A stretch of DNA of 64,000 bases, taken from assembly GCF_014697025.1 (NCBI RefSeq), contig NZ_JACJRC010000001.1, forward strand, positions 248,001 to 312,000, written 5' to 3'. The notes under the pieces were generated by a model. The model was given only the letters and a program-made list of their open reading frames with translations, was not told the origin of the DNA and did no database searches. Shown here piece by piece: positions 27,444-56,447 of the stretch (position 1 is the first letter of the stretch; every line of letters begins with the position of its first letter). A program made the position numbers and the translations under genes. Source of the DNA: Alkalinema sp. FACHB-956 (GTDB lineage: Bacteria; Cyanobacteriota; Cyanobacteriia; Leptolyngbyales; Leptolyngbyaceae).

Positions 27444-30400
27444 TCAAATTTGGGGTAGGAATTTGACAAGCTGTTCGCCAAATTGGTGTTTGAGGTCATT
27501 GATATCTACATAGTTTTGATAAAAATGCCCCATGTCAGAGAGTTTCTGCTTGAAGTTAAGTAGAGTCATAATTTCTGGTGTGATGCGACTCATGTTGATG
27601 GGTGCATCTTTAAAATAGGTATAAATTAAGGGCCGATCGCTATTCTTAAATGTTTCCAGTGCTGTAATAAATTCTTCTTCGGTGTATTGCCCAACTTTTG
27701 TATAGAACAGGCTAACAAATACGTCACAGTCTGCGATCGCTTTGTTATATTCGTCTTGCGATCGCGTCTTAGACATGGCATCAAGAAAGTTTTCCCAAAT
27801 CACGAGCTTTAAGCGAATGCCCCGATCTAAGTAGTAATCATTCTGACGACTAATGAAGATCTCGAACTGTTCTCGATCGGTCTTTAGTTCGGATGAGGAT
27901 GCTAGAAAAATTTTAATGGTTCGCATAGTGGGTGGATGGGTTTCAGGTGGGGTGGGTTCTGGGCCTTTTTTGTCGGGGAGGGTGGCTAGAATTTGCTGGA
28001 CTTCAAAGCCTTCTAGGAGTAGGTTTAGGGAAACGTCGGCTTCACTAATTTCGCATTCGATCGTTGGTTTTTTGCCGGATTCTTGGCGTTCTTTTAGACG
28101 GGAATATTTGAAAAAGTGGGGGTGGTTGCTGTCTTTGCATTGGTGGCATTGGCAGGGAATCATTTTGTTGTACTGCAAGCGATGGTAGGACTGGCTGATG
28201 CTGTCTAGTTCATCGACGATGACGGCTCGAAATTCGGCGATGCTGGGGCCACGTAAGCGGAGGGAAATTTGGCGGAGGTTCAGGTCTTCTTTGATTTCTG
28301 CCCAGGTGTTGCCTCGGCGGATGATCATGCCGTTGCGCCAGACCCAATCGTGGTTGGGGATGTAGCGATAGAGGGTGACTGCGAATTGCCAGAAAATGCC
28401 CTTTGGCATGAAGGCGTCGTAGCGAAATTGCATGTGGCTGTTGTGGGTTTCGTCCCAGTCGTAGGGGGGGGTGTTTTCGGGGAGGAGTTGGGGGGCGACG
28501 AGTTGGCCAGAGCTATCAATTTCGTAGACTAGACGAAAGTTTTTCATCAGTTCGATCAGGACATCGTGGGTGTGCCGATCGTGGGAGTTGTTCCAGATGT
28601 GGGTGCAGTCTTGGCGGCTGAAGCGTCCGGCTTTGGCTTTGATGGTGTCGTTGTCGAAGATGCGATAGACGGCGTTGGTGGCCCAGGTGGGTTTGAGGAT
28701 GACCCGATCGCGCAGGTGGGGGTTGTCGGCGTAGTGGAGCAGAATGCCGAGGTCGTGGAAGTAGCTGAGGAGGGTGTCGATGTTTTGACTAGTGGTGATG
28801 TCGTGGGTCTGACAGAGTTCGTCGAACTGGGTGCGGTAGATGTAGTCGCGGGGGTCGTCTTCGATCGCTTGGCGGACATCGACCCAGCGGGCGGGGACGG
28901 CTTCTCCGATGTGGGGGAGGGTTTGGGCGCAGTGTTCGATCTGGCCAATTAGGTTGTGGATGGTTTTGAGGCGCTGCTCGGCTTTGGCGCGATCGGATTC
29001 TTCGTGGGTTTTGAAGTTAATGGGGATGATGGCTTTGATGCTGTCGGGGTAGCGGCTGAGCAGGTCAGCGCGATTGAGGCTGCGTTGAATGTCGCCTTTT
29101 TCGTTGAGGACGATGATCAGGGGGCTGTCGCCTGCAAAGCGTTCGAGGATGTTGAGCCAGTAGTTGAAGTCGGTGTCGTCTTTGCGGTTGTCGGCGACGA
29201 GGATGTAGAGGGAACGTTTGGACAGAAAGAAGCGATGGGTGGCGTGGTAGATTTCTTGGCCGCCAAAGTCCCAGATGTTGAGATGGAAGTTGGGGGCTTC
29301 TGGGTTGTCCGATCGATCGTGCTTACGGCAGGGGAAGGAATGGGTTTGAACTTGGATGCCGCGCGTGCGATCGTCAATGTGGGGCAGGGGGCAGTTGGGG
29401 TCAAGGAGTTTATGGGCCAGGGTGGTTTTGCCTGCTTCGCCTTCACCGACGATCAGCAGTTTGGCTTCATAGAGATAATCTTTCCCTTGGGCTGCAAGCT
29501 GGGCATAGTAGTTCAGAATGGCAGCATTGCCCTGTCGAGCGATCTCCAGAGGCGGCTTTTCGATCGGGTTATTGTAGAGATTAATGCAATCGAAGACAAA
29601 CTGGTGAGCCATTTCGATCTCCAGCCTACCACTTGCGAGCCATTGCGGAATTTCTTTGATGCTATTATTACTTAAATCAAGCGATATTAGTCCTGTTACC
29701 TTATCTAAAAATAAACAATCAGTAACACCATTGTTACTTAAATCAAGCGAAATTAGTTCTGTTAAAGCTTCTAAAAATGAAAAATCAGTGATGTTATTGC
29801 CACTTAAATTAAGCGATGTTAGTCCTGTTAGTTTACCTAAGAATAAACAATTAGTGATGTTGTTATCACTTAAATCAAGAGACGTCAGCCTTGTTAGAAC
29901 TTCTAAAAATGAAAAATCAACGATGCCATTACCTCTTAAATTAAGCGACGTCAGTCCTGTTAGTACTTCTAGAAATGAACAGCCACTTATGATAGTGTAA
30001 CTTAAATCAAGTGACCTTAATTCTGTTAAAGCTTCTAAAAATGAAAAATCAGTGATGTTATTGCCACTTAAATCAAGTGATGTCAGTCCCGTCAACTTAC
30101 CTAAAAATGAAAAATCAGTGATGTTATTGCCACTTAAATCAAGTGATGTCAGTCCCGTCAACTTACCTAAAAATGAAAAATCATCGATATAGTTGTTGCT
30201 TAAATCAAGCGATGTCAGTTGTGTTAGCGTTTCTAAAAATGAAAAATCATCAATGTCACTACTACCTAAATTGAGAGACGTTAGTTGTGTTAGCGCTTCT
30301 AAAAATGAAAAATCATCGATGTAATTATTACTTAAATCAAGCGATGTCAGTCCTGTTAGCTTACCTAAAAATGAAAAATCGTCGATGTCATTGCCACCCA

Positions 30401-31076
30401 GATTAAGCGATATCAGTCCTGTTAGCTCACCTAAAAAGGAACAATCGGTGACACTATTATTACTTAAATCAAGTGATAATAGTCCTGTTAACTCACCTAA
30501 AAATAAAAAATCATCGACAATGTAATTATTACTTAAATCAAGCGATATTAGTCGCGTCAACTTACCTAAAAATGAAAAATCATCGATATAGTTGTTGCTT
30601 AAATCAAGCGACGTCAGTTCTGTTAGCGCTTCTAAAAATGAAAAATCATCAATGTCACTACCACCTAAATTGAGCGACGTCAGTTGTGCTAGCGCTTCTA
30701 AAAATGAAAAATCATCGATGTAATTATTACTTAAATCAAGCGATGTCAGTCCTGTTAGCTCACCTAAAAATAAGAAGCTGGATAGATTGACCTGACGCAA
30801 ATGTAAATGCCTGACGTGGCTGAACCACTGAAAAGGAAAGTCAAATAATAGTTGACTGGTCACAGGTGCCAGAAACAGCCCACTAACCGTACCGTCCTTA
30901 GCAACAGCATAGGTGTCTCGCTTAATTAAGTCCTGACTCGCCCAATCCCTCGTATTTTTCGCTTGGATATGCCTTTCAAATCGGTCTTCTGGGATTTCTT
31001 CCAGGGGACGACCCAGCAGGTCTCCCAGTTGGCGAATCAGGTCGAGGTCAGACATGGACTCAGGCATTCCATTCAA
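27444..31076 (-). CDS. LRR-Roc-COR (Roco) protein with C-terminal effector-like domain
   Basis: A 1210-aa multidomain protein. N-terminal 85 residues lead into about 18 leucine-rich repeats of 22 residues (88-490, consensus LTSLDLSNNxIxDFSFLxxLTx, the SDS22/internalin type). A Roc GTPase follows, with P-loop GEGEAGKTT (544-552), switch DFGGQE (603-608) and guanine-specificity LNEKGD (657-662). A COR dimerisation region (about 715-1000) contains CQCHQC. The C-terminus (1052-1210) is an extra domain with FLASSSELKTDREQFE and DEYNKAIADCDVFVSLFYTKVG, resembling DUF4062/TIR-like domains found at the ends of bacterial NLR-like and Roco proteins. Roco proteins are GTP-gated dimer switches; the end domain is probably the output. 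Transcribed alone. No partner gene is adjacent. Confidence 0.85.
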   Translation of the reverse strand: MNGMPESMSDLDLIRQLGDLLGRPLEEIPEDRFERHIQAKNTRDWASQDLIKRDTYAVAKDGTVSGLFLAPVTSQLLFDFPFQWFSHVRHLHLRQVNLSSFLFLGELTGLTSLDLSNNYIDDFSFLEALAQLTSLNLGGSDIDDFSFLEALTELTSLDLSNNYIDDFSFLGKLTRLISLDLSNNYIVDDFLFLGELTGLLSLDLSNNSVTDCSFLGELTGLISLNLGGNDIDDFSFLGKLTGLTSLDLSNNYIDDFSFLEALTQLTSLNLGSSDIDDFSFLETLTQLTSLDLSNNYIDDFSFLGKLTGLTSLDLSGNNITDFSFLGKLTGLTSLDLSGNNITDFSFLEALTELRSLDLSYTIISGCSFLEVLTGLTSLNLRGNGIVDFSFLEVLTRLTSLDLSDNNITNCLFLGKLTGLTSLNLSGNNITDFSFLEALTELISLDLSNNGVTDCLFLDKVTGLISLDLSNNSIKEIPQWLASGRLEIEMAHQFVFDCINLYNNPIEKPPLEIARQGNAAILNYYAQLAAQGKDYLYEAKLLIVGEGEAGKTTLAHKLLDPNCPLPHIDDRTRGIQVQTHSFPCRKHDRSDNPEAPNFHLNIWDFGGQEIYHATHRFFLSKRSLYILVADNRKDDTDFNYWLNILERFAGDSPLIIVLNEKGDIQRSLNRADLLSRYPDSIKAIIPINFKTHEESDRAKAEQRLKTIHNLIGQIEHCAQTLPHIGEAVPARWVDVRQAIEDDPRDYIYRTQFDELCQTHDITTSQNIDTLLSYFHDLGILLHYADNPHLRDRVILKPTWATNAVYRIFDNDTIKAKAGRFSRQDCTHIWNNSHDRHTHDVLIELMKNFRLVYEIDSSGQLVAPQLLPENTPPYDWDETHNSHMQFRYDAFMPKGIFWQFAVTLYRYIPNHDWVWRNGMIIRRGNTWAEIKEDLNLRQISLRLRGPSIAEFRAVIVDELDSISQSYHRLQYNKMIPCQCHQCKDSNHPHFFKYSRLKERQESGKKPTIECEISEADVSLNLLLEGFEVQQILATLPDKKGPEPTPPETHPPTMRTIKIFLASSSELKTDREQFEIFISRQNDYYLDRGIRLKLVIWENFLDAMSKTRSQDEYNKAIADCDVFVSLFYTKVGQYTEEEFITALETFKNSDRPLIYTYFKDAPINMSRITPEIMTLLNFKQKLSDMGHFYQNYVDINDLKHQFGEQLVKFLPQI
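29609..30815 (-). repeat. 66-bp LRR-coding DNA repeats, about 18 units
   Basis: The LRR region consists of near-identical 66-bp units (one is 69 bp). Many differ by a few bases only, for example those around 30057-30190. This is strong recent amplification or gene conversion inside the coding sequence. Confidence 0.9.
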
Positions 31077-36814: not shown

Positions 36815-37618
36815 ATGTTTGACAACCTTTCTAAATTCCTGATTCAGCAATATTCCCAGGACTTTGCGGCTTGGTTGCTAGGGGAGCCGATCGCCCTAAC
36901 CGAACTGCAACCCACCGAACTGTCGATCGAGCCGATTCGAGCGGATTCTGTAATTTTATTGAAATCGCAACAGGTGATTGTCCACTGTGAATTTCAAACC
37001 AACCCTGATCGGGATTTACCCTTTCGCATGGCGGATTATGCGTTACGGATTTATCGCAAATATCCCGATCGAAAGTTAGTGCAAGTGGTGGTTTATTTAC
37101 GGGAAACCACTTCAGAGTGGGTTTATGTAACACAATTTGAAGGCAATCAGTTCCGCCATGAGTTCCAAGTGGTGCGGCTGTGGGAGCAGTCGCCGGAAGT
37201 GTTTTTGCAACGGCCTGGATTGTTGCCCTATGCGGTGTTGACGCAAACGAACGATCGTGAAGCAGTCCTACGGGAAGTGGCGCGGCGCTTGGATGAGATT
37301 CCCGATCGGAGGGAACGGAGTAATTTGACGGTGAGCAGTGCGGTGATGGCTGGGTTATCATTGGAGAAGACGGTGATTCAACGAATTCTCAGGAGGGAAG
37401 TGATGCGGGAATCGGTGATTTATCAAGAGTGGGAAACGGAACTCAAGGCGGAAGGCCGAGCGGAAGGTCGGATGGAAGGACAGGAAGAGGAGCGGCAGAT
37501 CCTGGCGATGAAGATGTTGCAGGAAGGCTTATCCCTGGAGACGATCGCGCGGATTACCGAATATTCGATCGAACAATTGGAATCCATACAGGCTCAGATT
37601 AATTCAGCCGATCGCTGA
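36815..37618 (+). CDS. Rpn-family PD-(D/E)XK nuclease, copy 1
   Basis: A 267-aa protein of the Rpn (recombination-promoting nuclease/putative transposase, PD-(D/E)XK) family. Likely catalytic residues are Asp44 in RADSVILL and Glu59/Gln61 in HCEFQT. The C-terminal third is helical with AEGRAEGRMEGQ repeats, ending LEGLSLETIA-type helix and IEQLESIQAQIN. It is near-identical to the gene at 44192, including 15 nt of upstream sequence (TGTAGTAAAATTG). A consensus AGGAGG and ATG occur in phase inside the gene (37391-37405), as in E. coli rpn genes where an internal small protein inhibits the full-length toxin. A stretch of repeats of its own 3' end follows. Confidence 0.85.
   Translation: MFDNLSKFLIQQYSQDFAAWLLGEPIALTELQPTELSIEPIRADSVILLKSQQVIVHCEFQTNPDRDLPFRMADYALRIYRKYPDRKLVQVVVYLRETTSEWVYVTQFEGNQFRHEFQVVRLWEQSPEVFLQRPGLLPYAVLTQTNDREAVLREVARRLDEIPDRRERSNLTVSSAVMAGLSLEKTVIQRILRREVMRESVIYQEWETELKAEGRAEGRMEGQEEERQILAMKMLQEGLSLETIARITEYSIEQLESIQAQINSADR
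37391..37396 (+). promoter_or_regulatory. Internal Shine-Dalgarno in Rpn copy 1
   Basis: AGGAGG, six bases before an in-phase ATG (37403). The full match to the 16S tail inside a coding sequence is unusual and is conserved in copy 2 at 44768-44773. Confidence 0.55.
37403..37618 (+). CDS. Putative internal small Rpn protein (RpnS-like), copy 1
   Basis: In-phase internal frame of 71 codons (residues 197-267 of the Rpn protein), starting MRESVIYQEWE after AGGAGG. It would contain only the helical EGR-repeat tail without the nuclease core. By analogy with E. coli Rpn proteins, whose internally initiated small form binds and inhibits the toxic large form, this could be an antitoxin. The start signal is seen; the product and its function are inference. 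Confidence 0.4.
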   Translation: MRESVIYQEWETELKAEGRAEGRMEGQEEERQILAMKMLQEGLSLETIARITEYSIEQLESIQAQINSADR

Positions 37619-38060
37619 AGAAAATGGTCGATCGAACCACCGGATATTCAATGCTTCCGAAGATTTAGCCAAGATTCAGCCGATCGCTGAAGGTAAAGGT
37701 CGATCGAACATCTCCACAAAGAACGATCGCGCGGATTACGGAATATTCGATCGAACAATTGGAATCCATACAGGCTCAGATTAATTCAGCCGATCGCTGA
37801 AGTCAACGGTCGATCGAACCTCTCTACAACAAACGATCGCGCGGATTACAAACTATTCGATCGAACACCTGGAAGTAATACAAGAGCAGAGTAATTCAGC
37901 CGATCGCTGAAGGTAAAGGTCGATCGAACATCTCCACAAAGAACGATCGTGCTGATTACAGAATATTCGCTAGAACAACTGCAAGCCATGCAGGCACAGA
38001 TTAATTGCGCTGATTCCTAAAGATAAAGGTCGATCGAACATCTCCACAACGAACGCTCAT
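37541..38060 (+). repeat. Array of Rpn 3'-end copies (110-bp units)
   Basis: The last 78 bases of the Rpn gene (37541-37618) recur at 37723-37800, 37833-37910 and 37943-38020. Each retains the frame of the C-terminal 25 codons and a stop (TGA, TGA, TAA). Units are joined by a 32-bp linker with GGTCGATCGAAC and TCTCCACAA, giving a period of 110 bp. A decayed unit lies between the gene and the first full copy. Divergence increases along the array. Confidence 0.9.
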
Positions 38061-38065
38061 GTTTT

Positions 38066-38803
38066 TTACGGATAGATTTGCGTCCATTGGGGGGGAGTTT
38101 CACATTTGGGGCGCTGATCCCATAGAGCTTTTTGTAATATCAGTTTGCCATTTGCAAAACTATATGTGTATTTTCGTGGTTTTAATCTTGCTTTGACAAA
38201 TAGTCGATAATTACAAGGAATCTCGAAACTCAGCTCACGAGTTTGTGGATCAAATTGAGGCCAATTACGGAAATAATGAGTCGAATTGGATAAATTTTCT
38301 GGCTCAGGTTGATCGAGTTGTAACGGAATTGGATTAATTCCATCTCGATCGTTGTAATGGAAAACAACAGTATTGGGTGTCAACCAAGTAGTATTAAAAC
38401 TACATTTTACAACAACTAAAGAATCATGCTGAGTTACTTGATAAGGACCCCAGAAATCAAATAAACCTTGAGCTTCAATCGATCTACTAAAGTCACAAGC
38501 CTTACCCATTTCCTTGAATTGATGTGTTTGACTGAGTAAAATTTCCAACCCAGGTCGTTGAGGAATCATTCTTTTCAGGTTATATATAACTCGTTCTTCC
38601 CAGTTCATTGCTGCCCATGATTGTTCTTCTTCTGTTAAAGCTGGGGGGGGGTATTCAGAAAATTTAGCAGGCTCTGGCGAAGCTGTTTTGAGTGTAGCTG
38701 TATTCTGGGAAAAGGCTTGACAAGCTGTACTGCTCATACCTAAAAATAATACAGTTAGCCAAAAATTTATGACTCGGATTGCAGATAATTGAGTATTCAT
38801 CAT
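38066..38803 (-). CDS. Exported protein, possible lipoprotein and immunity partner
   Basis: A 245-aa protein, family not recognised. It has an N-terminal signal sequence (hydrophobic 12-23) ending in SSTAC at Cys28, which could be a weak lipobox. Four further Cys (KACDF, VKCSF, IPCNY, PKCET) suggest a disulfide-bonded periplasmic fold. The gene starts 16 nt after the stop of the 1621-aa protein and is surely cotranscribed. Because that protein ends in a lysozyme-like domain, the partner could be an immunity or inhibitor protein; this rests on gene order alone. GC content is low (about 37% in a 60-base sample at 38461). Confidence 0.6.
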   Translation of the reverse strand: MMNTQLSAIRVINFWLTVLFLGMSSTACQAFSQNTATLKTASPEPAKFSEYPPPALTEEEQSWAAMNWEERVIYNLKRMIPQRPGLEILLSQTHQFKEMGKACDFSRSIEAQGLFDFWGPYQVTQHDSLVVVKCSFNTTWLTPNTVVFHYNDRDGINPIPLQLDQPEPENLSNSTHYFRNWPQFDPQTRELSFEIPCNYRLFVKARLKPRKYTYSFANGKLILQKALWDQRPKCETPPQWTQIYP

Positions 38804-38819
38804 CGATTCCTCCTAATAG

Positions 38820-41800
38820 TTAATATTTAAAAACAAATACACTCTTACGTAATGCTTTAGCATAGGCAACCCCAAACTGCTGAATTTCCTGTTTTGCAGA
38901 TGGATCATAGTCATTTACCAACTCTCCTAATGCTGTGTAGGATTCTGGAGACCCATCCCACTGATATCGCGAATGATGAACAGTCTCTCCTGGTTGCCAA
39001 ATAATAATTTTGTATCCCCGAGGATCTGGACTAGTTCCTCGATCCTTATATTGAAAGCTACCTTGCCAATCAGGATTTGGTTTTTCTGAACCATCTCCAA
39101 ATACCCAATCCATTGCTGATTTTGTAGTAGCTCGTCCAGCGACAAAATAGTCAACCAGTGTAAAGGCCGCCCATTGATCTTGCTCCAAAATCTCTGGATT
39201 AGCAATAAAGTCAAGATTGCGTAGCCCTGGTACTCCTTTAATTCCTAATGTACCTTCTCGTGCCCGATCGGTTAAGTCTTGATAGCGGATGCGCCCGGTC
39301 ACTTGAACAAATCCCCGCCCCTTGTAGCGGATATGATCTCCCTCAACTTGGTTCATTAAATCAACCCGCCATTTATAACCGTCTTCTTTGCCGGGATATT
39401 CCAATGTGGTTCTAAAACGATCTCCTTCATGGGCACCGATCGCTAAAATGGCTGCCATCTTTTCATACATTATATTCAATTCTGCTTCATTGCTAGTCAG
39501 TTTAAAAATACCTTGTTCAATAAACTCATCAAGAACTAACTCCAGACGATTTTTGACAGTTTCAGTAGTGGCGCTACTATCCCATGCTGTCCGTGTAACC
39601 TCTGCCAATAATTCCACACTCAAAGAATAGACAATACCAGGCAGAGGTGTTGCTTCTAGAGGGGGCTCCAACAGAGGAGACCAGGCTAGACTGTTCGCTA
39701 GCTGAGAAGTTAGATTGGTGACTTGGGAAGAAGCCGTACAAATATTCTGACGACTGTTAAGTGTACTGACCTTCAAGAAGAAATCATCGGGATCATAGAC
39801 GAATAAATCATTATTATCTTGAGCAACAATATAGGCACTTCCCCACTCCAATAAACGATCAACAAATAGAGTATTGTCTAATTGATTCGCCCAAGCTGAA
39901 TCATTGACATTGGTTAGCACAATTGCAAGTTTTTGCAAGTACTCTAGCGCATATTGACGCTTTTCGGGTTGAAAGGTCTTCAGAAATTGCTGAAGTGCTT
40001 GAGGATTGGGAGTAGAATCTGGCAATTTGAGCCAGCGACTCATAAAGAAATGGAAGTCATCGGTTGGGTTGACATAGGTACTTCTCTCGGCCAATGTTAC
40101 GTAGGCTCCACCGAAGTTGAGCAAAGAACTCATCACCTGAGCATTTAAGAGTTGCTGAGCTAATGTTGCATCATTGATAGCAGCCGTCGATCGAATTAAA
40201 CGTTCTGCAAAGTTTAGAGCTTGAGTGGAACGGTCTACTGTAGGGAGGTTATTTGCCAGCATCCCCAACCCCGCCGCTGCGATGCGGATATCCCCCTGCT
40301 CCAGCAACGTCTCGACCCAATTGGCAATCTCAGTACCATTCGTCGCCTCCACCGTCGGATGCACCTGCACCAAACTGTAACCCAAATTCAACAACGCCTC
40401 AACAAACTCCACCGTCTGCACCGCATCCCGCCACTGCGCTACCTGCATCCCCGCCTGCACCAAACTCCGACTCATGCGCCACAGTTGCAAGTCATACCAG
40501 TCTCCATCGCCATTGCCCAAGCCATTCAACATTTGCACCACATTGCCCACAATCCCCGCCGCCTTGGTATTGCCATGCAGGATTGTCCGAATCGTATTGC
40601 CATCACTCAAACCACTGTCCGCCATATCCCACAGCTGATCTAACCAACCAAAGGTTCCAGTCAAACCCGTTCCCTGGGGCTTCAATAAACCATAGCTACG
40701 GGCCAGTTCCCGCGCCGCTTGCTGAATTTGATTCGTCTGTTGTGCCCCAAACCAATGGGTCTGGAGATGTGCCGCTCCCACCACCGTTTCCACTAGCGTT
40801 TGGAAGGTCAATAACCGAACTGATTCGGGATTCGTTACCAATTCTTTGGCTAAGGCCAAGCCAATTTGATTCAAATTCGCTGAGGAATACTTTGCTTTGA
40901 CTAAACTGCCTTGGAAAAACTGATCTAACCAAGCCCCCGTAAAGGCGGCTCCTCCCTCATAGCCAAAGCCAATGCGATCATCGGCATCGCCCTGGAGATA
41001 GGCTCCGGCTTCGATGAGCAAGTTGATACGATTTTTGAGCGCTGCTTTCTTGGCTTGGTTCCCAGCACTATCCGTCGGAATGGCGGCAAGGGCAGTCGTC
41101 AGGATGGAGCGTAGACGACTACGATAGGTGTTGCTGCTACCAGGGTTGCCATTGGCCGGGAACCACTGTGGATCGTTGAGAACCCCTTCTGGGGTGTTGT
41201 AGGGACTGCGAGACCACTGTCCACCATACCAGTAGCCCCAATAGCCATCAGCCCCCCAACCATACTGGGCCAGACCACTGCCTCCGCTCTGGCCACCACT
41301 CCCCCCCAGGGGCGGTGCAACCAGGTTATCTCCACTGGTATTGGGGTCATTGGGGTCTGTGCTCCCGGTCCACAGGTCGGTATCTGCCCAGGTGAAGGGT
41401 TTGGGGACGGAGAAGCTGTATTGCTCGGTTTGCAAGTTGCCTGCTCGATCGAGGCTGCGGAGGGTGAGGGTATGGCTACCTTGCTGGCTGGGATCGTTCC
41501 AATTGAGGAGGTCACTGACGGATTTGCTCCATTGACCATTGTTGCCCGTCCAAGTTTGGGGCGTTTGGTTGTCGAGTTGGTAGGTGACGTTGGCTAAACC
41601 CACCCCTAGATCAGTAATCGTGGCTTGGATTTGGTCGCTACTTTGCCAGGTGATGCCGTTGAGAATGCCGGAGATGACTTGGTTTGGAGCCACAGTATCA
41701 ATGGTAATCGCCAAGGCATTGCCCGTAGTGCTATAGCCCCAAGGATTGGTGACCTGGGCCGTCAAGCCATAGCTACCATCCGCCAACTCCGCTAATTGCA

Positions 41801-43685
41801 GTTGCCATTGCCCATTAGCCCCAATCCGCGTCTGCCCCAACACCTGCTGCGTCTGATCCCGAACCGTCACCACAGAACCCGCCTGACCCGTGCCCTGCAC
41901 CGTCACCGAAGCCTGATTCGTAATCCCATCACTATTGCTAATCCCCGTATCCGAAGCCAAGGCCAACTGCATCCCACTACCAAAGGACACTTGGCTGGGC
42001 ATCGTCGTCCAATCCAACTGGTAGGCCATCTGGGCATTCGTCTCATTGTGAAACACCCGAACCCCATAGGTTCCCGCTGCCAAAGACCGCTGAATCACCT
42101 CATCCAGCCCCAGCCCCAGCGTCGAACTCGCCAACACCTGTCCCGCACTGTCGAGCAACTGCAACTCCGCATTCCCCGTCAAATCATGCAACCATAGCCC
42201 GATCGGAGTTGCCGCACTCAACGAAAACCGATAGAAATCATCCCGATCCCAACCATTCAGCGTCCCCACCTGCCGCCCAGAACCATTCAGCGTGCCCAGC
42301 CCCGTCGCCAGCGCCCAGGTATCCCCCGCCTCATCCCAAACCACAGGCCGCACCGCCGTCCCGATCGCCTTAATCTGTCCACCCTGACTGGGGTTGACCA
42401 CCGTCCCGCCCATCGGCGTTTGCGTCCCATTCATCTGCCAAATCACCAAATCCCCCGTACTTTGGTGCTGCCACAGGGCATCCGTCTTGCCATCCCCACT
42501 AAAATCATCAATCCCCACCAACTGCCACCCAAAATCTGCCACTACCCCCTGCCAAATCAGCGATGACTGCACCTTCCAACCATCCATCGCCCACACCGCA
42601 ATCTGCCCCTGACTGTTGCGCCACAGCAGATCCGCCTTACCATCGCCCGTAAAGTCCCCCGCTCCTTCGATCTTCCAGCCTGTACTCGCGGGAATTTGTA
42701 ACGCCGTAAACTGGCCTTGGCCATTCATCTGACCTACCACATGGGTCTTATTGCCATCGATCGCAAAACCCGTCATTCCCCACAAATGCAGATCCCCCGT
42801 CTGCTGGTGTCGCCAGAGCAAATCCCCCGTGCGATCGCCATTGAAATCCGCCACTTTTTCCAACGTCCAAGCATTACCAACCAGGCTTTGCGCCAAGAGC
42901 TTATCACTAACCCGATTAGCTCCATTCATCTTCCAGAGGTAGACATCACCACTGGTGGGATTGTGCCAAACCACATCGGCCTTCCCATCCAGGTCAATAT
43001 CCGCCACCCCCTTAACCTGCCAATCCGCCGTCACCACTACATTATTGAGAAATAGCGCTTCAGTGTAAGTACCATTGGCCATCAACCACACAGCCATCTT
43101 ACCCGTGCTGCGTTCCCGCCACAGGATATCCTCATTGATATCGCCATTAAAATCTCCAATTCCCTCGATCGTCCATTCCCCTCCAACGGGCGTAGGAATT
43201 TGCTTAGAGCCGATATACTGCAAACCCTCAAACTGCCAATAGCCCAAGGTGAAATTCGTGAGATTGCGCCATAGAATATCCGTTTGTTGTTTCGTCTGCG
43301 TTGCGATTCTGAGGTCATACCCTGTGGAAACACTATCTACGCTATTAACAACGACATAATAGGTACCCGCTTCCAGCAGTTCTACTTGAATTGTTTCATT
43401 GCCAATCCCATCTCGGCTCGATTGCCAAAACTGATCCGCAGAATCAACAATCCCACTTTGATTAACATCAATCCCAATGCCGACATTGACATTGCCGCTT
43501 AGATTAGATAGGGATAGATTCAGACTGCTACGACTACTGAGATTCCAGCGATAGACATCCTGCCGATTGGTCGCCGACAAACTCTCCTGTTGCAGCGTTG
43601 GTACACCATTGACAATATTCAAATTTTGCGCAGCAGAAAGAGACAGACCCAGGAAAGCGTCAGTAGGCGTCGGCATAGCAATCAC
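38820..43685 (-). CDS. Giant FG-GAP/Ig protein with GH19 chitinase/lysozyme-like C-terminus
   Basis: A 1621-aa multidomain protein without a classical signal peptide. In order: a PPC-like beta domain (about 10-125), five FG-GAP/VCBS-like repeats ending in W (about 130-445: DxNGDxxxDxLWR...VWLM), a second PPC-like domain (about 450-565), bacterial Ig-like domains (about 580-765), a Gly/Trp-rich linker and a long helical region (about 850-1400). The C-terminal domain has AHEGDRF (Glu1420, probable acid) and YKGRGFVQVTGR (1454-1465), the GH19 chitinase/endolysin signature. It probably binds a surface and cleaves peptidoglycan or chitin. DNA for the last 470 residues is much lower in GC than the rest. 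First gene of a two-gene operon. Confidence 0.75.
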   Translation of the reverse strand: MIAMPTPTDAFLGLSLSAAQNLNIVNGVPTLQQESLSATNRQDVYRWNLSSRSSLNLSLSNLSGNVNVGIGIDVNQSGIVDSADQFWQSSRDGIGNETIQVELLEAGTYYVVVNSVDSVSTGYDLRIATQTKQQTDILWRNLTNFTLGYWQFEGLQYIGSKQIPTPVGGEWTIEGIGDFNGDINEDILWRERSTGKMAVWLMANGTYTEALFLNNVVVTADWQVKGVADIDLDGKADVVWHNPTSGDVYLWKMNGANRVSDKLLAQSLVGNAWTLEKVADFNGDRTGDLLWRHQQTGDLHLWGMTGFAIDGNKTHVVGQMNGQGQFTALQIPASTGWKIEGAGDFTGDGKADLLWRNSQGQIAVWAMDGWKVQSSLIWQGVVADFGWQLVGIDDFSGDGKTDALWQHQSTGDLVIWQMNGTQTPMGGTVVNPSQGGQIKAIGTAVRPVVWDEAGDTWALATGLGTLNGSGRQVGTLNGWDRDDFYRFSLSAATPIGLWLHDLTGNAELQLLDSAGQVLASSTLGLGLDEVIQRSLAAGTYGVRVFHNETNAQMAYQLDWTTMPSQVSFGSGMQLALASDTGISNSDGITNQASVTVQGTGQAGSVVTVRDQTQQVLGQTRIGANGQWQLQLAELADGSYGLTAQVTNPWGYSTTGNALAITIDTVAPNQVISGILNGITWQSSDQIQATITDLGVGLANVTYQLDNQTPQTWTGNNGQWSKSVSDLLNWNDPSQQGSHTLTLRSLDRAGNLQTEQYSFSVPKPFTWADTDLWTGSTDPNDPNTSGDNLVAPPLGGSGGQSGGSGLAQYGWGADGYWGYWYGGQWSRSPYNTPEGVLNDPQWFPANGNPGSSNTYRSRLRSILTTALAAIPTDSAGNQAKKAALKNRINLLIEAGAYLQGDADDRIGFGYEGGAAFTGAWLDQFFQGSLVKAKYSSANLNQIGLALAKELVTNPESVRLLTFQTLVETVVGAAHLQTHWFGAQQTNQIQQAARELARSYGLLKPQGTGLTGTFGWLDQLWDMADSGLSDGNTIRTILHGNTKAAGIVGNVVQMLNGLGNGDGDWYDLQLWRMSRSLVQAGMQVAQWRDAVQTVEFVEALLNLGYSLVQVHPTVEATNGTEIANWVETLLEQGDIRIAAAGLGMLANNLPTVDRSTQALNFAERLIRSTAAINDATLAQQLLNAQVMSSLLNFGGAYVTLAERSTYVNPTDDFHFFMSRWLKLPDSTPNPQALQQFLKTFQPEKRQYALEYLQKLAIVLTNVNDSAWANQLDNTLFVDRLLEWGSAYIVAQDNNDLFVYDPDDFFLKVSTLNSRQNICTASSQVTNLTSQLANSLAWSPLLEPPLEATPLPGIVYSLSVELLAEVTRTAWDSSATTETVKNRLELVLDEFIEQGIFKLTSNEAELNIMYEKMAAILAIGAHEGDRFRTTLEYPGKEDGYKWRVDLMNQVEGDHIRYKGRGFVQVTGRIRYQDLTDRAREGTLGIKGVPGLRNLDFIANPEILEQDQWAAFTLVDYFVAGRATTKSAMDWVFGDGSEKPNPDWQGSFQYKDRGTSPDPRGYKIIIWQPGETVHHSRYQWDGSPESYTALGELVNDYDPSAKQEIQQFGVAYAKALRKSVFVFKY

Positions 43686-44191: not shown

Positions 44192-45031
44192 ATGTTTGAC
44201 AACCTTTCTAAATTCCTGATTCAGCAATATTCCCAGGACTTTGCGGCTTGGTTGCTAGGGGAACCGATCGCGTTAACCGAACTGCAACCCACTGAATTGT
44301 CGATCGAACCGATTCGAGCGGATTCTGTAATTTTATTGAAATCGCAACAGGTGATTGTCCATTGTGAATTTCAAACCAATCCCGATCAGGATTTGCCGTT
44401 TCGCATGGCGGATTATGCGTTACGGATTTATCGCAAATATCCCGATCGAAAGTTAGTGCAAGTGGTGGTTTATTTACGGGAAACGACTTCGGATTGGGTC
44501 TACGTGACGCAGTTTGCAGGGAATCAACTTCGCCATGAGTTTCAAGTGGTGCGGTTGTGGGAGCAGTTGCCGGAAGTGTTTTTGCAACGGCCTGGATTGT
44601 TGCCCTATGCGGTGTTAACGCAAACGAACGATCGGGAAGCCTTGTTACGGGAAGTGGCGCGGCGGTTGGATGAGATTCCCGATCGGGCCCAGCGCAGCAA
44701 TCTGACCGTGAGTAGTGCTGTGATAGCTGGGCTATCATTGGAGAAGGCGGTGATTCAGCGAATTCTCAGGAGGGAAGTGATGCGGGAATCGGTGATTTAT
44801 CAAGAGTGGGAAACGGTACTCAAGGCAGAAGGCCGCGCGGAAGGTCGATTAGAAGGTCGGATGGAAGGTCGGATGGAAGGCCGGATGGAAGGTCGCGCGG
44901 AAGGGCTGGAAGAGGAACGGCGGATCCTGGCGATGAAGATGTTGCAGGAAGGCTTATCCCTGGAGACGATCTCGCGGATTACGGAATATTCGATCGAACA
45001 ATTGGAAGCAATGCAAGAACAGATTAATTGA
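44192..45031 (+). CDS. Rpn-family PD-(D/E)XK nuclease, copy 2
   Basis: A 279-aa near-identical paralogue of the gene at 36815, in the same orientation 7.4 kb away. The catalytic set (Asp44, Glu59, Gln61) is intact. It differs mainly in the tail, where EGR units are expanded (EGRLEGRMEGRMEGRMEGRAEG, given here as key pattern) by four 12-base repeats at about 44845-44905, so repeat number varies between copies. The internal AGGAGG-ATG is also present (44768-44782). The two genes bracket the giant-protein operon. Confidence 0.85.
   Translation: MFDNLSKFLIQQYSQDFAAWLLGEPIALTELQPTELSIEPIRADSVILLKSQQVIVHCEFQTNPDQDLPFRMADYALRIYRKYPDRKLVQVVVYLRETTSDWVYVTQFAGNQLRHEFQVVRLWEQLPEVFLQRPGLLPYAVLTQTNDREALLREVARRLDEIPDRAQRSNLTVSSAVIAGLSLEKAVIQRILRREVMRESVIYQEWETVLKAEGRAEGRLEGRMEGRMEGRMEGRAEGLEEERRILAMKMLQEGLSLETISRITEYSIEQLEAMQEQIN
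44768..44773 (+). promoter_or_regulatory. Internal Shine-Dalgarno in Rpn copy 2
   Basis: AGGAGG six bases before the in-phase ATG at 44780; same position as in copy 1. Confidence 0.55.
44780..45031 (+). CDS. Putative internal small Rpn protein (RpnS-like), copy 2
   Basis: In-phase internal frame of 83 codons (residues 197-279 of copy 2), starting MRESVIYQEWE. It carries the expanded EGR repeats and helical tail. It differs from the copy 1 counterpart mostly by repeat number, as expected for a rapidly varying specificity region. Inference only, as for copy 1. Confidence 0.4.
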   Translation: MRESVIYQEWETVLKAEGRAEGRLEGRMEGRMEGRMEGRAEGLEEERRILAMKMLQEGLSLETISRITEYSIEQLEAMQEQIN

Positions 45032-45131: not shown

Positions 45132-45515
45132 CTAACTAAATGTGAATGGATCAGTAAATAGGTTGGCTTTATTAAAATTATTCTCTGTAACACCAAACGG
45201 GAATGAAGATGTCCATAGTTCGTATAGCAAATGTCCTTCTAATAAGGTTAACACTACTACACTTCCTAGAATCATGGGTCGTCTCCAAGCTGGCTTAAAC
45301 TGATAGACCACAGCACTAATAAATAGAGCCTTAACTAAGCCAAAGACTACACCTATAGCCGTAATGCCTACTAAATCTCTGATTGATGGAACCCACATGG
45401 GACTAAATCTTGCCATCAAGAAGATTAACAGATGAATAATTGCAGAGCTAGGAATGCATAACCACAAAGCAAATTGTAAGGCTTGCCGACGATCCAGTGG
45501 AGGTGGAAACATCAA
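45132..45515 (-). CDS. Small membrane protein, unknown function
   Basis: A 127-aa protein with three or four hydrophobic helices (about 16-36, 45-68 and 80-100) and a polar C-terminus. Family not recognised. It sits between two copies of the Rpn 3'-end repeat (the Rpn gene end at 45031 and a unit at about 45580), on the opposite strand, and is AT-rich like the 38-40 kb cargo. It may have been inserted into the repeat. Confidence 0.5.
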   Translation of the reverse strand: MMFPPPLDRRQALQFALWLCIPSSAIIHLLIFLMARFSPMWVPSIRDLVGITAIGVVFGLVKALFISAVVYQFKPAWRRPMILGSVVVLTLLEGHLLYELWTSSFPFGVTENNFNKANLFTDPFTFS

Positions 45516-45579: not shown

Positions 45580-45722
45580 AGCGGATGACGGAATATTCGA
45601 TCGAACAATTGGAAGCAATGCAAGAACAGATTAATTGAGCTGATTATTCAAGGGAACGCGCGATCGAACATCTCCACAACGAACGATCGCCCGGATGACG
45701 GAATATTCGATCGAACGGTGAG
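45580..45722 (+). repeat. Rpn 3'-end repeat, detached copies
   Basis: Starting at about 45580 the sequence again matches the Rpn copy 2 tail (GAATATTCGATCGAACAATT, then the codons for EAMQEQIN and TGA) and its downstream linker. A second, truncated unit runs from about 45685 to 45718. Confidence 0.85.
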
Positions 45723-50906: not shown

Positions 50907-53900
50907 TCATGACTGAGATTGGTAAATGATCACGCGATTTCGACCCTGCTGCTTGGCTGCGTACAATGCTGCATCTGCTTGTTGAATTAACTGCTCCGGA
51001 GTCAGATTCTGTGCCGGAACAATTGCCGTTACCCCCAAGCTCAGACTAACGCACTCACTTACTTCCGATTGGGCATGGGGCAGTTTGAGATAGGCAATAT
51101 TCAGACGAATCGTTTCAGCAATTTGAAACGCACCTTCGATCGTGGTATTGGGCAAAATGATGGCAAATTCCTCCCCCCCATAGCGGGCAACTAAATCCGT
51201 CGATCGCTTAACGGAGGCTTGAATGGTCTGGGCTACGGTTTGCAAACAGGTATCTCCTCCCTGATGGCCATAGTGATCGTTATAGCGTTTGAAGTAATCG
51301 ACATCGCAGAGAATTAGCCCCAGGGAGCGCTGATCCCGCAGGAGGTGTTGCCATTCCCGCTGCAAGTAGTGATCAAACGCCCGCCGATTGGCCACCTGCG
51401 TTAAACCATCTAAGGTCGCTAACCGTTGTAACTCTTCATTGGCTGCCGCAAGGGCGGCTGTGCGCTCCATAACCTTTTGCTCTAGGATTTGGGCCTGTTC
51501 TTTCTGAAACGCATATAAGCGAGCATTTTCGATCGAAATGGCTGCTTGGGCACACAGCACTTTAACAATGTCCGATCGCGCAACGGTAAAAGTCGCCCGC
51601 GAAAGCTTATTTTCTAAATAAACCACCCCTAAAAAGTTGCCCTGATGAATCAAAGGTGTCGCTAAAATTGACTTGGGTTCTACTGTTTGGATATAGGGGT
51701 CTTGGCTGAATTGACTATGGTAGTTAGTCAGATCGTCTAGAACAATGGTTTCCTGGGTATGCGCCACATAGTTGACGATCGAAAGTGCGATTTGATGGGC
51801 CAAGTCAACCGAACGGGATGGCTTCTCTAGATTGTGTATGCTCAGATCCAACGATCGCGATGTTGCAGCATACCAGCCCGTTTCCGACTCCAGTAATAAC
51901 ACCCCCCGATCGGCTCCAGTATTTTCTAAAATGGTTGCCATGAATTTTTCGAGTAAGCGATCGAGGACAATTTCCTGCGACAATGCCTGCGATGATTTCA
52001 TCACTGTCATTAAATCTAATTGGGAAGAATGACTATTTACACTGTCTCGCAACGGATTCAGGGAAGTTTGTAAGTAATCACCAGAATGATCTGTATTCTG
52101 TCCTAAAATACCCACCAATAATTGAGAATATTTGATTTCTAAATGCTTGACTTTTGCGGTTGCTCCCCAGCGTTTAAACCAATAGCAAGCTTCTTGAAAA
52201 TACCATTGCGCAATTTTCACCTGGTTTAATTCTAAATAGAACCCAGTTGCTAACTCACAGGCGATTGCCACCTCCTGTAAAAAGCCTTGCTTGCGGGCTG
52301 CATCAATTGCCCGATCGTAATATCCCATGGCCTTTAAGGGTTGACGTTGAACCCGGCAGCATTCGGCTTCAATCAGCCACACTTTATGCTGATAATCGGA
52401 GGGCACATACTTGGCCCGGTGTTGTAATTGTTTCTGGGCAGTCCGAATGCGTCGCATCCATTGGAATCGTTGCAGGGGATGAATTTCTGACCACTGTGCC
52501 AAGCAGGTTAACGCCTCGAAAAAATGCCGCCCCGATCGCATCAGGCGACCGAGCGCCCCTTGTTGCAAAGGCTTCAGGTGTGTGAGGTGCTGTTGTGCCA
52601 GTTCATACTCGCCAAACAAATACGCTAGGAATAACTTTTGATAGTGAAAGTTAAACTGAGATGATGGATCGACAAAGACCTGAGCCTCCGGATTGGTTTC
52701 GTCATACCGCACGCCTGCAAATTGCACGGCTTGCTCAGGGGAGGGCAGTTGTAAATTGAGCAAAGTTTGCCAAACTAACCGAAATACCATTAAAGTTCGC
52801 GGTTGACGTAGGCTTTGCATCATCGGGTAATAGATTTCACAGTCCTGCAGCAGCTGATTCAGCTCTTGTCCCACCCAAACCCCGTAGCTCACTCGAAAAA
52901 ATAAGCAAGCCGCCGCATATTCAAAATCGCCCACTTCGATCGCGCGATAGTGCAGTTCCAAAAGGGGATCTAGGAGGCACCGAGCGGGTTCTTTCCAGTG
53001 ACGGATAAAACTTTGAAAGACCATCCCCAACCGAACTTCAGTGCGTCGATTCTCCAATTTATGAGTCAGCGCGATCGCTTGTTGGGCAATCCGATATCCC
53101 AATTCCACCTTGCCCATCACATTACATAGCATCAATCCAAAGGCTCCATATTGCAACGGAGAGGAAGGGGCTGCCCCGTGCTGCAAGGAAAGTTGGATAC
53201 CCTGAATCGTATTCCACAGAAGTAGATTGCGGCTTGATACGTATAGTGAACCCCCCAAGCTATCCATGATTTGGGTGATCGCCCGAGCGGTTGGGTCAGT
53301 CATGATTGGCAATTCAGCAATCCGTTGCCACGATCGTTTTAATACCCGCTGGAGCCGCAGCAGATCGGGCAGGAGCGTCATCATCCGAACCTGCCGCTGA
53401 ACCTTCAGTCCAAATTGTTGAAAACGCTCAATGCCGTAAAGAATCGCCTGTTCCGTTTGCTGCCGCGCAACATAGGATTGAATACGGATCTCGTGGGCAT
53501 TCATCTGATCTAACAGTGAAGTTGTATTGTTCAAAATTTCATCTAAATAATGCTCCATAACTGTGAATTTGCCACATAACAAAGCCGCATCAGCCGCCGC
53601 TTCCAACAGCATTAAAACCAGTCGATATTGGCATTGCCAAGACTGCTGTTCTAAATATCCTAAACCTGTTACAAAGTAATCAAGGGCAATGTCATAGGCA
53701 TTGGCATCTCTAGCTTTGCGACCTGCTTTCAGATTCAATTCCGCTAAATGCTGTTTGACCGCGCGATCGTACAGCATCACCGGCCCCTGATTCAGGTGAT
53801 TGACCAGATCAAACAGGCGATCGGCCTGCGCTTGAAGGGTACTGTGGTTGAGGAAGGCTTGCCCAATTCGCCAATGGAATTGTTGTTTCTGCGCCGTGGG

Positions 53901-55970
53901 AATTAATAAATCAACGGCCTGTTGAATGCGATCGTGGGCAAATCGATATTGCAACGGCACCCCCGCCAGGGTATCCGTGCTCGCTCCGTAGCGATAATCT
54001 GGCACAATAAATCCCTGACCCAAGGCAGGCCAGAGTTGAGTCGCGATCGTTTGCACAGCGTCCTGCTCCAGCAGAGCTAGCGTTGCCAGATCAAAGTAAT
54101 TGCCCAAACAGGCTGCCATTTGGAGTAACCGTTGAGCCGAAGGCGGCAGTTTTTGAATTTGATCAATTAACAAATCAACGACATTATTGGTAATTTGTTC
54201 ACTCTGAATTCGTTCAACATCCCATTGCCAAGCCCGTTGCGAATAATCAAAATGAATTAATTTTTCCGCGTACAACGTTTTCAGAAATTCACCAATAAAA
54301 AAAGGATTGCCTTGGGTTTTTGTCAGAATGAGTTCTGCCAGGGGAGCCGCTTGGGTGATTTCGCAGTACAACGTATCAGCCACCATGTGCTCTACGGATT
54401 CTAACGCCAACGGAACAAGTTCGATCGCCCCAATCGCCACTCCCCGACCGGTCAGTTTGTTCAATGTTTGCAGGAGGGGATGGGCTTCATCCACCTCTCG
54501 ATCGCGATAGGCTCCCACAATCATCAAGCCTTCAAATGCGCTATCTAAAAAGGTGAATTCTAACCATTGTAAAGTCGCATTATCAGCCCATTGCAAATCA
54601 TCCAGAAACAACACTAACGGATGATCCGTTTGACAAAATATCCTCAAAAACTCCTGAAAGACACGATTAAAACGATTTTGAGCTTCTTGGGAGGGTAAGG
54701 GGAGAATGTCCGGCTGTGGCCCAATTAACCATTCCACTTCAGGAATCGCTTGAATAATCACCTGTCCGTTATTGCCCACAGCGTCTAAAATCTGCGATCG
54801 CCATTTCTGCAAAGTGATCTCATCAGAACTGAGTAACTGCTTCATCAGCATTCGCAGCGCTTCTACGATCGCGCTATAGGGTCTCGATCGCTGCAATTGC
54901 GCAAATTTACCAGAAATCAACCGCCCTTGACGCTCAGCAATGGGTTGCGCCACTTCCTGCACGAGTCTAGATTTCCCAATGCCCGCATACCCTGAAATGA
55001 CGGTCAGTTGTGCAGATCCCCGTTGGGTTTGCGCAAAGGTGTCCAATAACTGTTCGATCGCCTGCTCCCGTCCATACAGTTTAGACGATACCTGAAACCG
55101 ATCCGATCGATCCAATTGTCCCAAGCGAAACACATGGCGCACCCCCTGGTGCCACTGTGCGAGGCAATGTTCTAAATCCGCTTGCAATCCGTAGGCACTT
55201 TGATAACGATCCTCCGGCATTTTGGCTAAAAGCTTCATCACGATCGCCGACAAACTTTGCGGAATATCAGCATTTAACTCATGGGGGGGACAGGGTTGTT
55301 GTGCTAGGTGGCAATGAATTAACTCCAAGGGCTCAAGGGTCTCAAAAGGTAACTGATGGGTCAGTAACTCATACAAAGTCACCCCCAGACTGTAGAAATC
55401 TGTGCGGCAATCAATGGCATGGTTCGTTCGTCCCGTCTGCTCCGGAGAAATGTAGGCCAGAGTACCCTCCAGCACATTATTCTGAGAAAATGTGGGTTGC
55501 GATCGCGATTGCACCACAGAAAGTCCAAAATCAATGAGTTTTAACTCACCAGTCGTCGAATTCCAGACAATATTACTGGGATTAATATCTTTATGAATGA
55601 CCTGGTGTTGGTGAATGATATCTAAGGCTTGGGCAATCTGAATCGCTAACTCCAAAACCGTTTGGACAGAAAAAGGCTGCTGCGCTTGGAAAACATTCAG
55701 CGATCGCCCCCCAAAGTCCTCCAGCACCAGAAAGCAAGTATTCTGATATGCCTGAAAGTCATAGATTTGAATGACTGGCTCAACCTGCAATTTGGATAAG
55801 ATCTCGTATTCCCGACGATAATTGGCCAAGGATTGAGGATTGGGATACTGCTGGTTCAGAACTTTCAGAATGATTGGGTGCGGCGTGTGGCTAGAATGTC
55901 CCCGATAAATTACAGAATTCAGACTTGCATAAATCTGTTCAGTTACCTCAATGCCTGGAAAATCAAACAT
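50907..55970 (-). CDS. Hybrid Ser/Thr kinase-ATPase-GAF-GGDEF protein
   Basis: A 1687-aa signalling protein. An N-terminal eukaryotic-type kinase (1-280) has catalytic loop HKDINPSN (126-133) and IDFG. An AAA/STAND-like ATPase follows, with Walker A GYAGIGKS (327-334) and a VLFLDDLQWAD Walker B. A long helical, TPR-like region extends to about 1300, then a GAF domain (about 1350-1500), a short coiled coil and a GGDEF domain with active GGEEF (1598-1602). It should phosphorylate proteins and make cyclic-di-GMP. ATG 55970 (MFDFPGIEV) is chosen as it starts directly before the kinase fold; ATG 56054 would add 28 unconserved residues. Transcribed alone. Confidence 0.9.
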   Translation of the reverse strand: MFDFPGIEVTEQIYASLNSVIYRGHSSHTPHPIILKVLNQQYPNPQSLANYRREYEILSKLQVEPVIQIYDFQAYQNTCFLVLEDFGGRSLNVFQAQQPFSVQTVLELAIQIAQALDIIHQHQVIHKDINPSNIVWNSTTGELKLIDFGLSVVQSRSQPTFSQNNVLEGTLAYISPEQTGRTNHAIDCRTDFYSLGVTLYELLTHQLPFETLEPLELIHCHLAQQPCPPHELNADIPQSLSAIVMKLLAKMPEDRYQSAYGLQADLEHCLAQWHQGVRHVFRLGQLDRSDRFQVSSKLYGREQAIEQLLDTFAQTQRGSAQLTVISGYAGIGKSRLVQEVAQPIAERQGRLISGKFAQLQRSRPYSAIVEALRMLMKQLLSSDEITLQKWRSQILDAVGNNGQVIIQAIPEVEWLIGPQPDILPLPSQEAQNRFNRVFQEFLRIFCQTDHPLVLFLDDLQWADNATLQWLEFTFLDSAFEGLMIVGAYRDREVDEAHPLLQTLNKLTGRGVAIGAIELVPLALESVEHMVADTLYCEITQAAPLAELILTKTQGNPFFIGEFLKTLYAEKLIHFDYSQRAWQWDVERIQSEQITNNVVDLLIDQIQKLPPSAQRLLQMAACLGNYFDLATLALLEQDAVQTIATQLWPALGQGFIVPDYRYGASTDTLAGVPLQYRFAHDRIQQAVDLLIPTAQKQQFHWRIGQAFLNHSTLQAQADRLFDLVNHLNQGPVMLYDRAVKQHLAELNLKAGRKARDANAYDIALDYFVTGLGYLEQQSWQCQYRLVLMLLEAAADAALLCGKFTVMEHYLDEILNNTTSLLDQMNAHEIRIQSYVARQQTEQAILYGIERFQQFGLKVQRQVRMMTLLPDLLRLQRVLKRSWQRIAELPIMTDPTARAITQIMDSLGGSLYVSSRNLLLWNTIQGIQLSLQHGAAPSSPLQYGAFGLMLCNVMGKVELGYRIAQQAIALTHKLENRRTEVRLGMVFQSFIRHWKEPARCLLDPLLELHYRAIEVGDFEYAAACLFFRVSYGVWVGQELNQLLQDCEIYYPMMQSLRQPRTLMVFRLVWQTLLNLQLPSPEQAVQFAGVRYDETNPEAQVFVDPSSQFNFHYQKLFLAYLFGEYELAQQHLTHLKPLQQGALGRLMRSGRHFFEALTCLAQWSEIHPLQRFQWMRRIRTAQKQLQHRAKYVPSDYQHKVWLIEAECCRVQRQPLKAMGYYDRAIDAARKQGFLQEVAIACELATGFYLELNQVKIAQWYFQEACYWFKRWGATAKVKHLEIKYSQLLVGILGQNTDHSGDYLQTSLNPLRDSVNSHSSQLDLMTVMKSSQALSQEIVLDRLLEKFMATILENTGADRGVLLLESETGWYAATSRSLDLSIHNLEKPSRSVDLAHQIALSIVNYVAHTQETIVLDDLTNYHSQFSQDPYIQTVEPKSILATPLIHQGNFLGVVYLENKLSRATFTVARSDIVKVLCAQAAISIENARLYAFQKEQAQILEQKVMERTAALAAANEELQRLATLDGLTQVANRRAFDHYLQREWQHLLRDQRSLGLILCDVDYFKRYNDHYGHQGGDTCLQTVAQTIQASVKRSTDLVARYGGEEFAIILPNTTIEGAFQIAETIRLNIAYLKLPHAQSEVSECVSLSLGVTAIVPAQNLTPEQLIQQADAALYAAKQQGRNRVIIYQSQS

Positions 55971-56447
55971 GTCATTAGTGAGGAATGAGTGCCAAATCAA
56001 TAAGAACAAACACGATCGTCCTTCTGGGTCTCTATCCAACCCAGCAACGCCCATAGAAAAAGATTGATGCCCCAGAAGACCCCTCTACCTGAACAAGCAT
56101 CTGGCATCTCGTCCAGTTCACGATCCCTCTAGCCTTTCTCCAGCGTACGTCCAGCATATCTCTAGCCCGTCCTCCCCAGCACCCACTCAGAACTTCCCCG
56201 TCTTACGTTCATTCCAGCCTGCCCAATCCGTTGGGCGATGTCACATCGTCTAGGCAAATCGTCTAGGCAAATCGTCTAGGCAAATCGTCTAGGTAAATCG
56301 TCTAGGCAGCCATCTAGTCAACTCCCCCCTTCCCAAAATATCGACAATTTCCATTTTGTTGCAAAGGATGATCCCAACAATCGGCCCAGCTTTTCGATAA
56401 AATTGGACTTTGTAGTATCCGCCATTACCGTTTTTCGGAAAGTCACC
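55971..56447. other. Intergenic between hybrid kinase and leuC
   Basis: No gene is supported. It contains promoters of both divergent genes and the 13-bp repeat at 56245-56309. Confidence 0.5.
56245..56309. repeat. 13-bp tandem repeat x5
   Basis: ATCGTCTAGGCAA is repeated five times (fourth and fifth units have one change each), upstream of leuC. Confidence 0.95.

Follow-up and report, generated by a model that had tools for sequence, protein, structure and literature searches.

A cyanobacterial polymorphic-toxin-like family with exchangeable C-terminal tips, and its GH19-tipped member with a proposed lipoprotein immunity partner in Alkalinema sp. FACHB-956

The contact-dependent inhibition (CDI; CdiA/CdiI), Rhs and Maf systems are alike in having a constant N-terminus, an exchangeable C-terminal toxin and an immunity gene directly downstream, as well as tandem orphan tip-immunity cassettes and a break in composition at the junction (PMC3482391). 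Another precedent comes from Xanthomonas, where the GH19 peptidoglycan hydrolase effector X-Tfe XAC2609 is inhibited by the lipoprotein X-Tfi XAC2610 (PMC10933484), and TfcB of Stenotrophomonas is a comparable case (PMC11253643). Here, we consider a locus in a 64,000-nucleotide stretch of the Alkalinema sp. FACHB-956 genome (contig NZ_JACJRC010000001.1, positions 248,001 to 312,000; this whole stretch is referred to as the window), where a gene for a 1621-amino acid (aa) giant protein with a GH19 end is followed, after 16 nt, by a gene for a 245-aa candidate lipoprotein. We consider it quite likely that this locus is a member of a cyanobacterial polymorphic toxin family, with a GH19 wall-cutting tip and the adjacent lipoprotein as its proposed immunity protein. 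The family has the anatomy of a polymorphic toxin, namely a constant part, an exchangeable tip, a cognate downstream gene, tandem cassettes and a junction, and in these features it resembles CDI, Rhs and Maf.

The backbone, however, is of a different kind. The 1621-aa protein consists of a PPC domain, FG-GAP repeats, a second PPC domain, two Big_13 domains, a helical region and the GH19 C-terminus, with the Pfam domains PPC, FG-GAP and Big_13 all lying within the first 760 residues. The first-pass annotation, made from the sequence alone, had spoken of adhesion-type domains, and these can now be named from Pfam as two PPC domains, FG-GAP repeats and two Big_13 domains. In the known systems, the corresponding backbones are of the filamentous haemagglutinin (CDI), RHS (Rhs) and MafBN (Maf) types. 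Pfam detects neither a CdiA-type haemagglutinin domain nor any known trafficking domain in the 1621-aa protein, only PPC and FG-GAP in its N-terminal part, and no CdiB-like gene was recognised beside its gene, although not every neighbour was scanned. VENN and DPxGL are the junction motifs of known polymorphic toxin systems, whereas the junction motif here is DIRSAxFIREL-like. FG-GAP, pre-peptidase and VCBS are not mentioned in the searched text of the Zhang et al. 2012 survey (PMC3482391), and the backbone lies outside the trafficking types treated there, to the extent that this text is searchable. Nor was any paper found that describes a PPC/FG-GAP/Big_13/helical backbone, in a literature search that covered subscription journals and preprints only thinly.

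Relatives were sought using residues 796-1621 of the window protein as query. This query retrieved GH19 proteins, together with giant proteins that match residues ~811-1286 and nothing beyond. When aligned, the giant proteins have in common the helical region, in which 'FLxxLLxLGxxYAxLNP'-like units recur, and beyond it nothing is shared. The helical region, which is predicted to be all-helical at moderate confidence, is found at the same place in these proteins, ahead of about a dozen unrelated C-terminal domains. A profile search placed the family in 12 of 42 genomes of the order, i.e., the window's genome and 11 others, several with 5-10 matches; named carriers are Phormidesmis priestleyi ULC007 and the metagenome-assembled genome Leptolyngbyaceae cyanobacterium CSU_1_3. 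Among 386 genomes sampled across the phylum, the family was absent from the other 385, with the best four candidates at most being scored per genome. This family with swappable tips is the larger point, which the first-pass annotation had missed.

The tips are diverse. One Phormidesmis tip is itself a CdiA-CT domain of the CDI systems, RNAse_A_bac (32.2 bits against a Pfam cut-off of 27), and is followed by a 102-aa gene. Another matches the GHL10 glycosyl hydrolase above the cut-off, further ones match an eCIS_core-type metallopeptidase, a CHAT protease and CHAP/NlpC below the cut-off, and several have no match at all. Tips and downstream genes were each compared all-versus-all, and recent duplicates were removed before permutation. 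Downstream genes were homologous in 12 locus pairs, and in all 12 the tips were homologous as well, a count reached in none of 200,000 permutations. Homologous tips were found in 15 pairs, the three exceptions being distant class-C tips whose downstream genes encode other membrane-type proteins. The matching pairs cross genera (four for class A, two each for classes B and L). Wall- or protein-hydrolase-like tips are followed by genes for lipoproteins, exported or anchored proteins, while the RNase A tip is followed by a small protein of cytosolic type, with no signal. The window pair, a wall-hydrolase tip and then a candidate lipoprotein, fits this compartment rule. The first-pass annotation had read the two genes as a possible effector and immunity pair from their order only, and this reading now has further support in that a tip is exchanged as a unit with the next gene. 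Among the remaining tips, one (L052, 5058-6107) has a lysozyme- or transglycosylase-like look (GVIWWE...) with no Pfam match, and is possibly another wall-targeting tip. In genome G005 (L034, 3289-4188), a transposase-like open reading frame lies inside a family copy, between the backbone and a GHL10 tip.

The cassettes are most easily followed on Phormidesmis contig NZ_MPPI01000007.1, where a tandem run begins with a long copy carrying the RNase A tip and its partner and continues with shorter copies. These mostly start inside the helical region, and each pairs a tip with a small gene. DNA identity across the shared parts is 74-86%, and in comparisons with the long copy, similarity breaks off at one position, give or take a single base, directly after DIRSAQFIRELVAFGFEVARVN. 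In the window protein, residues 1089-1110 are the matching place (Table 1). Tandem cassette arrays are also present in CSU_1_3, with none in the window itself. As homologous glycosyltransferases (60% identity) follow both the Phormidesmis array and the single family gene of genome G006, it seems that different cassettes occupy one and the same site. The Phormidesmis priestleyi ULC007 array (L035/L036) comprises at least four tip classes, with several tips and immunity proteins of no known family.

Base composition points to the same boundary. In the window gene, GC content at third codon positions (GC3) changes shortly after the junction motif (Table 1), with a log-likelihood ratio of 47.6 as compared to a shuffle maximum of 10.4. 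The partner has a GC3 of 0.27, as opposed to 0.49-0.67 in ordinary window genes. In 24 of 24 other copies, not all of which are independent, tip GC3 is below backbone GC3, and in most cases the downstream gene has a GC3 close to that of the tip. The GH19 tip and the partner are of foreign composition and the backbone is not, and this shared anomaly is further support for an effector-immunity pair.

These results should also be considered against a more ordinary explanation, namely that the giant protein serves outside the cell as an enzyme for housekeeping or nutrition, such as an adhesin-anchored chitinase or a wall-remodelling lysozyme, and that the lipoprotein either has nothing to do with its neighbour or helps in folding or secretion. 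PPC and FG-GAP domains are indeed common in secreted proteins of cyanobacteria, the relatives regularly have GH19 proteins of ~310-330 aa, and the partner belongs to no family. Yet such an enzyme would not account for many unrelated enzymes, a CDI RNase among them, on the same backbone with class-specific partners, nor for foreign composition restricted to tip and partner, and a separate standalone GH19 gene is already present in the same genome (G000:C10). We thus regard this explanation as improbable.

The assignment of the tip is based on its matches and residues. The C-terminal part of the 1621-aa protein matches PHROG endolysin families (E 8e-13) and solved GH19 phage endolysins (E 4e-9). 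E1420, the Glu of AHEGDRF, aligns with a Glu for which the deposited variant 9hnu has Gln. The second Glu, E1429, is retained both in these endolysins and in the relatives' standalone GH19 proteins. The GH19-type end proposed in the first-pass annotation is borne out by these matches, and the motifs quoted there hold the conserved HE and KGRG residues. By sequence match and by the presence of both candidate catalytic Glu residues, the tip is classified as a GH19 peptidoglycan hydrolase. The catalytic domain is like that of GH19-type phage endolysins (e.g., PDB 9hnv, 9hqw) in the HE, the second Glu and the KGRG motif; these, however, are standalone lysis enzymes with neither a backbone nor an inhibitor. 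As GH19 enzymes include chitinases, and as the tip also matches a PHROG chitinase profile, though more weakly, one could ask if the protein is a polymorphic toxin directed not at bacteria but at eukaryotic grazers, fungi or other organisms that bear chitin, with the GH19 domain acting as a chitinase and the partner not being an immunity protein. We find this very hard to credit, as the best matches are endolysins that cut peptidoglycan, as immunity-like genes specific to each class would serve no purpose if chitin were the target and as the RNAse_A_bac tip belongs to the antibacterial domains of CDI type.

The partner gene is preceded by an AGGAGG Shine-Dalgarno sequence, a strong ribosome-binding site. 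It encodes five cysteines, one of which lies within a lipobox-like LGMSSTAC, and matches no Pfam, NCBIfam or PHROG family, in agreement with its earlier description as an exported-type protein with several cysteines and no known family, encoded 16 nt downstream. By analogy, XAC2609/XAC2610 is the nearest functional precedent for the GH19 tip, being a GH19 effector whose inhibitor, a lipoprotein of the periplasm, is encoded next to it, the role that is proposed for the partner here. The two differ in that XAC2609 is a small protein sent through type IV secretion by its XVIPCD signal, while in the giant protein of the window no XVIPCD match is found in Pfam or NCBIfam and the C-terminus is the toxin tip. 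Likewise, XAC2610 has a PliI-like fold, whereas comparing the sequence of the window partner with PDB chains gave nothing significant.

Several points weigh against a toxin-immunity pair and should be considered when referring to the results above. The N-terminus of the 1621-aa protein shows no Sec signal peptide, no secretion partner was identified, and the export of the protein is not accounted for. The partner N-terminus resembles a lipoprotein signal, yet Ser at lipobox position -3 is unusual. Protein searches returned no partner homologue in 58 relatives, 85k genomes, plasmids or PDB sequences, and a single-sequence structure prediction of the partner was unusable (predicted local distance difference test score, pLDDT, of 45). 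A second GH19 tip on the helical backbone was not found in the genomes searched, and since the GH19 cassette is a singleton, the specificity of its partner is drawn from the family rule. A model of the helical region with the GH19 domain, built from 33 alignment rows, some loosely placed, reached a moderate pLDDT of 58 and gave no significant fold match. Finally, family members in several relatives are frameshifted or truncated, and decay is also possible; as many relatives are broken, some of the members may be relics. The window locus could itself be in decay, as what is left of a displaced or fragmented cassette that no longer has a function, and rpn genes and repeated rpn 3' ends do flank it. 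Still, we give this little credence, as the gene is intact over 1621 codons, both catalytic Glu residues are kept and the partner has its strong ribosome-binding site.

Taking the locus as a toxin with its immunity gene, the surface-type backbone (PPC, FG-GAP, PPC, Ig-like and helical parts) would present or deliver the C-terminal toxin. The giant protein would be exported and would contact a neighbouring cell, where the GH19 tip, delivered into the target periplasm, may cut the peptidoglycan of the wall through its predicted glycosidase activity. In the producer's periplasm, the 245-aa lipoprotein may block the enzyme and so protect kin. Tip and immunity gene would be swapped together by recombination within the helical region, either at the DIRSAxFIREL-like motif or after it. 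On balance, we lean towards regarding the family as a new class of polymorphic toxins, so far seen in a single order of filamentous cyanobacteria and built on a backbone of its own (PPC, FG-GAP propeller-like repeats, Ig-like domains and a helical pre-toxin region), with export independent of a signal peptide, cassettes exchanged at a conserved helical motif, and tips that include peptidoglycan hydrolases with lipoprotein inhibitors. Cyanobacterial mats and filaments are dense and competitive, and to our knowledge, protein weapons between cyanobacteria have been little described. The family supplies concrete toxin-immunity pairs, with many tips and immunity proteins of no known family, and its recognisable backbone can be used for finding further members. 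It also raises the question of how such a giant protein, with no signal peptide and with a C-terminus that varies, leaves the cell. Should the partner inhibit the GH19 domain, it would represent a new lysozyme inhibitor without known relatives.

Table 1 Features of the locus and its surroundings, in window positions
Feature	Position	Strand	Details
Giant protein gene	38820-43685	-	1621 aa, GTG start; polymorphic-toxin-like
PPC domain 1	43341..43562	-	Residues 42-115; Pfam PF04151, 58.6 bits
FG-GAP repeats	42366..43253	-	~Residues 145-440, limits approximate; Pfam PF01839/PF13517
Big_13 Ig-like domains	41406..41972	-	~Residues 572-760; Pfam PF19077, 76.6 bits, two stretches
Helical region	39828..41114	-	Residues 858-1286; constant part adjoining variable tip
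Junction motif	40356..40421	-	Residues 1089-1110; equivalent of relatives' DIRSAxFIRELxxFGFEVAxVNP
GC3 change point	40226..40262	-	Residues ~1142-1153, best at 1147; 0.60 before, 0.34 after
GH19 lysozyme/endolysin domain	39108..39491	-	Residues 1399-1526; E1420, E1429 candidate catalytic Glu; KGRGFVQ at 1454
Partner gene	38066-38803	-	245-aa candidate lipoprotein, proposed cognate immunity protein; GC3 0.27
Rpn family nuclease gene 1	36815..37618	+	NCBIfam TIGR01784, 87.1 bits
~110-bp repeated copies of rpn 3' end	37541..38058	+	Abut partner stop codon
Rpn family nuclease gene 2	44192..45031	+	NCBIfam Rpn match; 86% identical direct repeat of gene 1
Small membrane protein gene	45132..45515	-	GC3 0.33; candidate orphan immunity gene
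Further copy of rpn 3' end	45581..45716	+	Abuts small membrane protein gene

The surroundings of the pair are also listed in Table 1. The bracketing of the pair by duplicated rpn genes, already pointed out in the first-pass annotation, holds, as both genes match the NCBIfam Rpn family and form direct repeats. The rpn genes may have a part in moving the toxin-partner and membrane-gene cassettes. The small membrane protein beyond the second rpn gene is homologous to the products of two Phormidesmis genes that each come directly after a class-C tip (phmmer E 1.6e-18 and 3e-18), and it was considered as a clear orphan immunity gene. As relatives of it are also free-standing, it was downgraded to a candidate, and this homology hints only faintly at such a role; a class-C tip was not found elsewhere in the window's own genome. 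Further away on the minus strand, the window encodes a Roco protein (27444-31076) with leucine-rich repeats, a Roc GTPase, COR-A/COR-B and a C-terminal part with no Pfam match, and a large signalling fusion (50907-56054) of a Ser/Thr protein kinase, AAA_16, GAF and GGDEF.
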